From Gammaproteobacteria bacterium (GTDB taxonomy: Bacteria > Pseudomonadota > Gammaproteobacteria > JAADHQ01): a DNA stretch of 34,136 bases. The notes under the pieces are model-generated. The model did no database searches, had not been told where the DNA came from, and saw nothing but the letters and a program-made list of their open reading frames with translations. Of the stretch, positions 21,760 to 32,738 are shown piece after piece. The DNA lies in assembly GCA_011052215.1 (NCBI GenBank), contig DRJK01000120.1, forward strand, positions 1 to 34,136, written 5' to 3'. Within the stretch, counting starts at the first letter, position 1; the number at the start of each line of letters is the position of its first letter. The translations under genes were made by a program, and so were the position numbers.

Positions 21760-21806
21760 TATTAAATACAGTATATTGTAACACTGGTTATTATGGTGTG
21801 ACTCAC

Positions 21807-23930
21807 ATGGCAGAAAAACAAAATTATAAAATGGCAGATAATATTGCAGAATTAAAACCGGCCCAGACCGTGCGTGATCTTAAATCACATGAATTATTTA
21901 TTAATCGTGATTTAAGCCTGCTTGAATTTAACCGTCGCGTCCTTGAACAGGCACTGGACGAGTCCAGTCCGCTTCTGGAAAGGTTGCGTTTTCTGTGCAT
22001 TTCCAGCACCAATCTGGATGAGTTTTTCGAGATACGGGTATCTGGCCTGAAACACAAGGCAGAAATCGGGCTCGGCGGCGTAGGTTCCGGTGGGCTTACC
22101 CCGCAGGAGGCACTCAATGAAATACGGGCCAAATGCCTTGATCTTGTTGCCGAACAATACCGTGTCCTGAATGAAGTATTGCTCCCCCGGCTCGAAGAAA
22201 ATGGTATTCGTTTTATTCGCCGAAGTGACTGGAATCAGGAACAGGATGAATGGTTGCACCAGTTTTTTCAGGAATCACTGGTACCGGTATTGACCCCGAT
22301 GGGGCTGGATCCCGCACACCCTTTCCCCCGCATCCTGAACAAGAGTCTTTCCTTTATTATATCACTGGAAGGTAAGGATGCCTTTGGGCGCAATTGCAAT
22401 ATGGCAGTAGTCCAGGCGCCACGTTCCCTGCCCAGGCTGATTCAGATACCCGGTCATATAAAAGGCACAGGCGTACAGGATTTTGTCTTTTTATCCTCAA
22501 TAATCCATGCCTACGATGATGAATTATTTCATGGTATGAAAGTCAAGGGTTCATTCCAGTTTCGAGTGACCCGTAACAGTGATCTGTTTGTCGATACGGA
22601 GGAAGTGGATAACCTGCTGCGCGCGATGGAAGGGGAACTGCTATCGCGAAGGTATGGACAGATGGTCAGGCTGGAGATTGACAGCGAATGCTCTGATGAT
22701 GTCATTGCCTTTCTGCTCAAGAGCTTCAAATTGCAGGAAACCGATGTGTATCGGGTTAACGGGCCGGTCAATCTGAGTCGCATGTTGCAGGTCTGTGATC
22801 TTGAGAATCGGAGCGATCTGCGTTTTTCACCTTATGGCCCAAGAAAATCGCTGCAGCTTGGCAAGGGCAAGGATATTTTTTCAGTTCTCAAACGTCAGGA
22901 TGTATTGCTGTATCACCCCTTTGAATCCTTTTTACCGGTCATTGAGTTTCTGGCGCAATCAGCCAGGGACGACGGCGTGCTGGCCATCAAACAAACCCTG
23001 TACCGTACCGGCCCCAAGTCTGCTGTAGTCGATGCCCTGGTGGATGCCGCCCGTGCCGGGAAGGAAGTGACCGTCGTAATCGAGTTGCGCGCACGGTTTG
23101 ATGAAGCAGATAATATTACCCTGGCCAACCGGTTGCAGGAGGCGGGGGCACATGTTGTATATGGCGTAGTGGGTTACAAGACCCATGCAAAAATGGTGCT
23201 GGTGGTCAGACGTGAAGGTAAAAAACTGAGAAAATATGTACACATGGGTACCGGAAATTATCACCCGCGTACCGCAATGATCTATACTGACTACGGCCTG
23301 TTTACCAGTGATGTGCAGATAGGTGATGATGTCAGCAATGTATTTATGCAGCTAACCAGTCTCGGCAAGGTGGCGAAACTACATAAACTCCTGCAGGCAC
23401 CGTTTACCCTGCATGTTGCTATCCTGAAAAAAATTGATCGGGAAAGGAATAATGCCAGACAGGGTCTGCCTGCCCGCATCATTGCCAAAATGAATTCGCT
23501 GACTGAAACACGGATTATCGAGGCGTTGTACAAGGCATCAATGGCAGGCGTGGAGATAGACCTGATTATTCGAGGGATCTGCTGCTTACGTCCTGGCATG
23601 GAAGGTGTTTCTGAAAATATCAGGGTTCGATCGATAGTTGGCCGTTTTCTGGAGCATACACGTGTTTTCTATTTCCAGAATAATGGTGAATCCGAGGTCT
23701 ACTGCTCCAGTGCCGACTGGATGGATCGCAACATGTTCCACCGGGTCGAAATCAGTTTTCCAATCCAGACAAAGCGCATTAGCAAGGAAATCTTCAAACA
23801 CCTGGAATATTATTTAAAAGATAATACCCAGAGCTGGGTATTGCTGCCAGATGGAACCTATCAACGTGCCTTCAATGATGAGCCTGCATTCTGCGCCCAA
23901 CTCCAGCTTATGGATGATATGACAAGGTAA
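21807..23930 (+). CDS. ppk1: Polyphosphate kinase 1
   Basis: A 707-residue enzyme that builds polyphosphate from ATP reversibly. It opens with FINRDLSLLEFNRRVLEQALDE and LRFLCISSTNLDEFFEIR, typical of the PPK1 N-terminal domain. The PLD-like catalytic part has the phospho-histidine H460 in KTHAKM and H479 in HMGTGNYHPRTA, spaced exactly as H435 and H454 of E. coli. The ATG at 21807 is preferred over the GTG three codons earlier; neither has a strong ribosome binding site. It closes the gnd-zwf-thioesterase-ppk1 run and converges on ppx across a strong palindrome. Confidence 0.95.
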   Translation: MAEKQNYKMADNIAELKPAQTVRDLKSHELFINRDLSLLEFNRRVLEQALDESSPLLERLRFLCISSTNLDEFFEIRVSGLKHKAEIGLGGVGSGGLTPQEALNEIRAKCLDLVAEQYRVLNEVLLPRLEENGIRFIRRSDWNQEQDEWLHQFFQESLVPVLTPMGLDPAHPFPRILNKSLSFIISLEGKDAFGRNCNMAVVQAPRSLPRLIQIPGHIKGTGVQDFVFLSSIIHAYDDELFHGMKVKGSFQFRVTRNSDLFVDTEEVDNLLRAMEGELLSRRYGQMVRLEIDSECSDDVIAFLLKSFKLQETDVYRVNGPVNLSRMLQVCDLENRSDLRFSPYGPRKSLQLGKGKDIFSVLKRQDVLLYHPFESFLPVIEFLAQSARDDGVLAIKQTLYRTGPKSAVVDALVDAARAGKEVTVVIELRARFDEADNITLANRLQEAGAHVVYGVVGYKTHAKMVLVVRREGKKLRKYVHMGTGNYHPRTAMIYTDYGLFTSDVQIGDDVSNVFMQLTSLGKVAKLHKLLQAPFTLHVAILKKIDRERNNARQGLPARIIAKMNSLTETRIIEALYKASMAGVEIDLIIRGICCLRPGMEGVSENIRVRSIVGRFLEHTRVFYFQNNGESEVYCSSADWMDRNMFHRVEISFPIQTKRISKEIFKHLEYYLKDNTQSWVLLPDGTYQRAFNDEPAFCAQLQLMDDMTR

Positions 23931-23946
23931 AGAAAATAGAGAAAAT

Positions 23947-24023
23947 ATAAGAAAATAGGGTCAGACTCGATATAATTCATTTATTTTCTTCTAATTATAT
24001 CGAGTCTGACCCTATTTTCTTAT
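23947..24023. repeat. 31-bp perfect palindrome between ppk1 and ppx
   Basis: Arms 23947-23977 and 23993-24023 are exact inverted copies around a 15-base loop; the core is GGGTCAGACTCGATATAATT. The outer flanks are A-rich on the left and T-rich on the right, so transcripts from either side would form a hairpin followed by a U-rich tract. It fills most of the 99-base gap between convergent ppk1 and ppx and could end both. Its length and perfection suggest an inserted repeat element rather than an ordinary terminator. Confidence 0.8.
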
Positions 24024-24029
24024 TTTCTC

Positions 24030-25514
24030 TCATGTGAACAGGAATCTATAGCCCGCCTTGTCGAGATATCCGACTTCGGCCTCAAGGTCACTCTTTGTCA
24101 GGGGATGTGCCGATAACCAGTCCTGATCAAATGACAGGTTGATCTGTTTATTGTTAACTGTTATTGCCGGTATGTTCGATTCCTCTTCAATGCGGCTCCG
24201 GTTTAACAGGATCGCGAGTCGTAACAGTATGGTAAGCCGTTCACCGACCTGATTATTATCCGATTCAAATTCATTAAACAGTTCCATGTTTAATGAGCGC
24301 CTTTGCTGCTGAATTATTAAAGACAATAGCTGCTGGCCCTGGCGTGAAAAGCCAAGCAGGTCGGCATGCCCTGTCAGATAGGCGCCGTGTTTGTGAAAAT
24401 GGTTATGTGCAATGGAGAGACCGGCTTCATGCAGTATCGCGGCCCATTGTAATGTTTTTTTTGCATCCCCCCGGTTTTTAAACCAGGATTTTTTCACTTG
24501 CCCGAATAAATGCTGTGCCGTTTTTTCTACCCGATTGGCATGTGCGCGGTCTATGACAAAACGTTTGGCAAATTTTTCCACAGTTTCACTGCGGGTGTTT
24601 TTCTTTTTATCGCGCCCTATCAGGTCATAAAGAATTCCTTCACGCAGTGCTCCGTTTGATACGACCATATTTTCGATATCAAATGCATCAAATATTGCGT
24701 TCAGCACTATAGTGCCACCTGTGATAACAGGCAGTCGTTCTGCCTTGATACCTTTGAGCGAAACTTTATCGATATGGCCGGCATCGAGCAGGTGGTCAAG
24801 TATCTTGTCCAGAGCGTCTCGCGTAATTCCGTGGCTGGACCATCCTTGTTCGATTGCTATTTTTTCTATTGCCCTGACTGTACCCGATGAGCCGATTGCA
24901 TCCTGCCAACCAAGATTTTTATAGGTATATATGGATGGTTCCAGTTCTCTCATAGCATGCATATGCGCCTTCAGGATTTTCTTCCGGGTGATTTCCCCGC
25001 TGCTGAAAAAATATTTGGTCATGCTGACACAGCCCATATAGAGGCTTTCCATACGGATGGGTTTGTAGCGTTCTCCGATAATAATTTCCGTGCTTCCACC
25101 GCCGATATCGACAACCAGTCGCTGACCATTATCAGAAGCCACATTATGTGCAACCCCGGAATAAATCAGGCGAGCCTCCTCAATACCGGAAATAATCTCG
25201 ATAGGGTGGCCGAGAATTTTCTCACCCCTGGACATAAACCTGTTGGAGTTATGGGCCTTTCTCAGGGTATTGGTGCCGACTATGCGTACGACATCGGCAT
25301 CCAGATGCCGTATTCTCTCTCCAAAACGGGCAAGGCAATCGAATGCCTTGTTCATGAACTCAGGGGAGATATTATTTTTTTCATCCAGACCTGAGGCGAG
25401 TCGGATCATTTCACGAATCCTGTCCAGCACAATAATCTGGCCGGATTCATTTTTGCCGACGATCATGTGAAAACTGTTAGAACCCAAGTCGATTGCTGCC
25501 AGAATATGTTGCAT
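24030..25514 (-). CDS. ppx: Exopolyphosphatase (Ppx/GppA family)
   Basis: A 494-residue ASKHA-fold phosphatase that removes terminal phosphates from polyphosphate. It has the phosphate-1 loop AAIDLGSNSFHMIVGK at the N-terminus and the phosphate-2 loop VVDIGGGSTEIIIGE, then a C-terminal HD-like helical domain (WAAILHEAGLSIAHNHFHKHGAYL). Length fits Ppx (about 500-515). GppA (pppGpp phosphohydrolase) cannot be fully excluded, but the adjacent ppk1 favours Ppx. It is 140 bases downstream of pgl on the same strand and may share its transcript. Confidence 0.92.
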   Translation of the reverse strand: MQHILAAIDLGSNSFHMIVGKNESGQIIVLDRIREMIRLASGLDEKNNISPEFMNKAFDCLARFGERIRHLDADVVRIVGTNTLRKAHNSNRFMSRGEKILGHPIEIISGIEEARLIYSGVAHNVASDNGQRLVVDIGGGSTEIIIGERYKPIRMESLYMGCVSMTKYFFSSGEITRKKILKAHMHAMRELEPSIYTYKNLGWQDAIGSSGTVRAIEKIAIEQGWSSHGITRDALDKILDHLLDAGHIDKVSLKGIKAERLPVITGGTIVLNAIFDAFDIENMVVSNGALREGILYDLIGRDKKKNTRSETVEKFAKRFVIDRAHANRVEKTAQHLFGQVKKSWFKNRGDAKKTLQWAAILHEAGLSIAHNHFHKHGAYLTGHADLLGFSRQGQQLLSLIIQQQRRSLNMELFNEFESDNNQVGERLTILLRLAILLNRSRIEEESNIPAITVNNKQINLSFDQDWLSAHPLTKSDLEAEVGYLDKAGYRFLFT

Positions 25515-32621: not shown

Positions 32622-32738
32622 ACCCAACGTAGAGTTCAGCTGCATTTTACTTGCTGCGTTTTTTGCGTGAAAATAAGAGCGTAGTGATCACGCAAAAAAC
32701 GCAGCAGGTAAAATGTCAGATGCAACGACTTGTTATGT
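32622..32738 (-). repeat. attC-like recombination site (integron cassette)
   Basis: The 117-base palindrome is bounded on the plus strand by ACCCAAC (perfect RYYYAAC) and GTTATGT (one mismatch to GTTRRRY). The body is a 28-bp arm (32643-32670) matching 32688-32715 with one T-G difference around a 17-base loop. The right flank GCAACGACTTGTTATG resembles known attC 3' ends of the form AACGACTTGTTAGGC. On the minus strand the cassette core GTTGGGT is followed at once by the SET gene. No integrase gene is present in the window. Confidence 0.75.

Follow-up and report, generated by a model that had tools for sequence, protein, structure and literature searches.

A long perfect palindrome between ppk1 and ppx is very probably a miniature element derived from the terminal repeats of a resident Y1 transposase

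RAYT-like genes bounded by terminal inverted repeats (TIRs), some of which share GGGGWSAS, are described in Di Nocera 2013 (PMC3733652) together with moderately abundant repeat families that include dimers; the same work places REPs mostly between unidirectional and convergent genes, near 3′ ends. Most TIRYTs belong to subclass 2.1, in which canonical REPs were not found (Quentin 2018, PMC6006769); the RAYT group assignment used here follows that study. Here we analysed a palindrome located between two convergent genes in a 34,136-nucleotide stretch of gammaproteobacterial DNA (the window).

The identities of the two genes, ppk1 and ppx, were both upheld by Pfam and NCBIfam. Their stop codons are separated by 99 bp, almost all of which is taken up by the palindrome. 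The features of the region are:

21798-23930, plus strand: ppk1, polyphosphate kinase 1; its 3′ end adjoins the element
23931-23957, plus strand: left A-rich tail, with repeated AGAAAATA copies immediately upstream of the core
23947-23977, plus strand: left perfect arm, comprising A-rich tail (23947-23957) and the repeat core GGGTCAGACTCGATATAATT (23958-23977)
23978-23992, no strand: 15-nt loop CATTTATTTTCTTCT between the perfect arms
23993-24023, minus strand: right perfect arm, comprising the core (23993-24012) and tail in the minus-strand reading
24013-24031, minus strand: A-rich tail on the right, reading GAGAGAAAATAAGAAAATA on this strand, with the tail unit repeated
24030-25514, minus strand: ppx, exopolyphosphatase (Ppx/GppA family), stop codon 24030-24032; its 3′ end adjoins the element

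The arms (23947-23977 / 23993-24023) are exact reverse complements of 31 nt, bearing out the uninterrupted inverted repeat reported in the preliminary description. The next outward pair (23946/24024) is T-T, and at 95% complementarity the palindrome reaches 39 nt (23939-23977 / 23993-24031). Within each perfect arm the outer 11 nt are A-rich tail, GGGTCAGACTCGATATAATT beginning at 23958. This is the longest perfect inverted repeat of the window when loops of 3-40 nt are allowed, whereas the longest perfect inverted repeats in five shuffled windows measured 9-11 nt. The predicted RNA fold has an energy of -52.1 kcal/mol, compared to an average of -15.9 for shuffles (z -12.6). Matches in Rfam (16 at E up to 1) all fell under the gathering scores and were set aside as typical of generic long hairpins, and the titles returned by a literature search with the motif letters looked unrelated. 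A second strong inverted repeat, with 28-nt arms at 96%, is located at 32643-32715 of the window; it is present as a single copy in the genome and is unrelated to the GGGTCAGA repeat described below.

The palindrome has the form of a terminator, with a strong stem preceded by an A tract and followed by a T tract. On the plus strand the right tail (24013..24031) is T-rich, like a terminator tract, and its final two bases lie inside the ppx stop codon. A terminator scan did not flag the palindrome because only loops of 3-8 nt were allowed, and the loop here is 15 nt. Judged by this structure, the palindrome probably acts as a bidirectional terminator for ppk1 and ppx. The earlier remark that it is far stronger than needed for termination was fair, but together with its A/T tails it does take the form of a bidirectional terminator. 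The strong stem between two convergent stops, with its A tract and then T tract, could also be explained by an intrinsic bidirectional terminator that evolved in place for ppk1/ppx, with no mobile origin; we consider this very unlikely, since the same 20-nt core flanks a transposase gene and recurs elsewhere, and the palindrome is missing at this site in two congeners. The shared core thus contradicts termination as the origin of the palindrome and leaves it standing as a present role.

A search of the whole 2.6-Mb genome gave six copies of the motif GGGTCAGACTCGA and none of its reversed-pattern control. Two copies form the palindrome arms, two flank the transposase gene of contig C103 in inverted orientation and two are singletons, at C123:4065 and at C44:7752, the latter adjoining a degenerate second copy. 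Besides the transposase unit only three places carry the motif, fewer than the many dispersed copies that had been anticipated, and 3/3 are located between convergent genes. Over 20/20 bases both palindrome arms agree with the transposase's right terminal repeat; for the left core the agreement runs on through the first 3 nt of the loop (CAT), to 23 nt in total. The head of the window copies reads ATAG; GTAG is found at the left transposase flank only. The genome also contains another repeat pair, inverted GGGTCAGAGTCAATT, at L079 1499-1557 (G000:C44:15998-16056), for which no transposase of its own was found in the assembly.

The transposase gene (L016:1939-2625) encodes a protein of 228 aa and is the only Y1/RAYT-type transposase gene of the genome. 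The inverted GGGTCAGACTCGA on both of its flanks supports the link to RAYTs that had been proposed. The protein matches PF01797 (Y1_Tnp) with 51.7-53.4 bits, scores 77.7 bits against NCBIfam REP_Tyr_transpos, just below the cut-off of 80, and carries HVH and YIELNP, the latter being the class 2 signature Y---NP. A search of the PDB by sequence gave no matches, so fold comparison was used. The best PDB match of the structure model (mean pLDDT 73) was 4er8, a REP-associated, REP-bound transposase (E 1.2e-06), and the model shows a helical C-terminal extension of ~100 residues. In TIRYTs of subclass 2.1 the C-terminal extension resembles a helix-turn-helix; no HTH Pfam match was found for the protein here.

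In congeners G001 and G003 the ppk1-ppx gap measures 12 and 20 bp, compared to 99 bp here, and the palindrome is absent from it; the element is therefore lineage-specific. The same gap in congener G002 is 631 bp long and contains different DNA (L070 403-1033, G002:C119), which suggests that inserts may have entered it on more than one occasion. Congener DNA in this region is only ~72% identical, such that the exact insertion borders are not readable. Judging from this sequence comparison, the palindrome is no intrinsic part of the ppk1/ppx pair: rather than a single copy conserved with these genes, the outcome that the preliminary description had set against mobility, there are six copies in the genome and none in the congener gap. 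These observations also bear on a regulatory device that would couple ppk1 and ppx by pairing their 3′ ends in a duplex or by way of an RNase III site. Such a duplex is possible only with transcript read-through, when both transcripts could carry complementary 3′ ends. However, a conserved role is made less likely by the lack of the element in congeners, the same repeat is also found between unrelated gene pairs, and either transcript would fold on itself more easily, making this explanation exceedingly improbable.

The repeat shared with the flanks of the sole Y1/RAYT gene, its dispersed copies and its absence from the congener gap all point to a mobile origin, while the low copy number for a REP-like family counts against it. 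We consider it very likely that the palindrome is a non-autonomous miniature element made from the terminal repeats of the resident HuH/Y1 transposase and mobilised in trans, which probably serves as a bidirectional terminator. Its structure is best read as two transposase-flanking terminal repeats joined head to head, a dimer of the TIRYT/TIRtron type. In this model the non-autonomous element would consist of the terminal repeat of a TIR-flanked RAYT in two copies, inverted relative to each other, and the transposase would recognise the folded single-stranded repeat, cut beside it and rejoin the ends; recognition, cutting and rejoining have been demonstrated in vitro for E. coli TnpAREP (PMC8266576). 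Mobilised in trans, the element would have entered the site at which the 3′ ends of ppk1 and ppx converge; there the insert may be tolerated because it is located between two 3′ ends, and its stem and flanking A/T tracts would now end transcription from both sides. A striking palindrome would thus be explained as a mobile repeat, with its likely mobiliser identified in the same genome.

Recurrence of the repeat in gammaproteobacterial genomes, mentioned in the preliminary description, is supported by other genomes of the class. In a sample of 369 genomes of the class, 15 contained exact inverted pairs of GGGTCAGA[C/G]TC, 8-38 bases apart; the control gave 0. A gammaproteobacterial MAG (L067) encodes a transposase that is 75-76% identical, with the repeat upstream, and genome G054 contains a second, related transposase (239 aa) flanked by inverted GGGTCAGACTCGA. 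The form GGGGTCAG is present in L067 and in many copies of G003; this genome has AGGGTCAG. Repeats differ between transposases, as another transposase of G003, a RAYT gene at L072 664-1875 (G003:C12), has per side four copies, in inverted orientation, of a different repeat (CCCGGGTCAGAGAACAATTG; AAACCCGGGTCAGAGAACAATTGTTTC). Over all fetched loci, a rough ORF heuristic assigned 23 to tandem, 12 to convergent and 4 to divergent contexts; 15 more fell within open frames and 3 lay at an edge. With these results the TIR-flanked RAYTs, which are little studied, gain a widespread repeat family, GGGTCAGA[C/G]TC.

The arms of the window palindrome share a tail variant, AAGAAAATA, that other copies in the genome lack, and they extend over 31 bp without any mismatch. 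Both properties would fit a variant of the mobile reading in which a single repeat was inserted and the palindrome then grew by inverted copying of one arm (template switching, quasi-palindrome). Inverted pairs of fixed design nevertheless recur elsewhere: genome G197 contains five such copies with the same tails, where dimers therefore seem to spread as units. We regard arm copying as a possible but unlikely route. An explanation of the tail as nothing but locus-specific target DNA was abandoned, as tails are common to copies across the genome in both G197 and G167.

Beyond the dimer itself, full repeats often stand behind 3′-truncated heads with the same tail, possibly a new, class-wide detail. 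Of 105 array-collapsed copies, 20 have the 8 nt that directly precede the core a second time in the 52 nt upstream, compared to 0.3 expected at random positions, and this upstream recurrence is often followed by a truncated core. The pattern CAATRG-N(0-30)-CAATRGGGTCAGA was found at 44 places in 22/369 genomes, with one control match in all. The loci were gathered through the motif itself, and some copies share a genome and are not independent. Arrays of 3′-truncated heads, each behind the same short tail, are seen at L023, L027, L030, L033, L034 and L064 as well as at the CAATRG-N(0-30)-CAATRGGGTCAGA places. Apparent quantal stops at 1, 5 and 11 letters in 25 cases were gone in a larger set. 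We tentatively propose, as a reading that is rather doubtful, a polar process of spread or decay that leaves a full repeat behind at least one of its own 3′-truncated heads (0-13 letters), each after the same 7-13-nt tail. Hairpin copying would proceed as if aborted and then restarted at the tail, and the repeated AGAAAATA units in the window tails would be scars of this process. The truncated heads are compatible with replication slippage at the hairpin as well as with incomplete rejoining by the transposase. The cited literature contains no established in vivo mechanism for insertion or expansion of TIR-type RAYT repeats; if true, the polar pattern would be a sequence trace of either event. 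This concrete and testable trace of repeat self-copying is the part worth following.

Among known systems, IS200/IS605 elements and their derivatives share the transposase superfamily and fold, whereas the transposase here is single-copy and flanked by inverted repeats, and is no multi-copy insertion sequence. The REPINs/BIMEs of RAYTs (Bertels and Rainey 2011, PMC3116915; Nunvar 2010, PMC2817692) likewise consist of two inverted short palindromic repeats, which also flank the single-copy transposase associated with them, but the repeats here lack a constant GT(A/G)G head at the base of a GC-rich hairpin, and canonical REP/REPIN copy number is usually >100 (hundreds), compared to 6 motif copies. 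Two defining features of canonical GTAG REPs/REPINs, the constant GT(A/G)G head and high copy number, are thus absent. TIRYTs/TIRtrons differ in that copies are very few here and that the tails here are A-rich and repeated; GGGTCAGACTCGA is not printed in the text of Di Nocera 2013 (PMC3733652). The likeness to them includes a Y1/HuH transposase gene between inverted repeats of which further copies are scattered through the genome, moderate copy number with dimers, and the class 2 signature Y---NP in the transposase. GGGGWSAS is found in some but not all published TIRs; AGGGTCAG here is one letter off, and many relatives have GGGGTCAG. The element can be ranked as a rather ordinary case within a class that is known but little studied, the repeats of TIR-flanked RAYTs.
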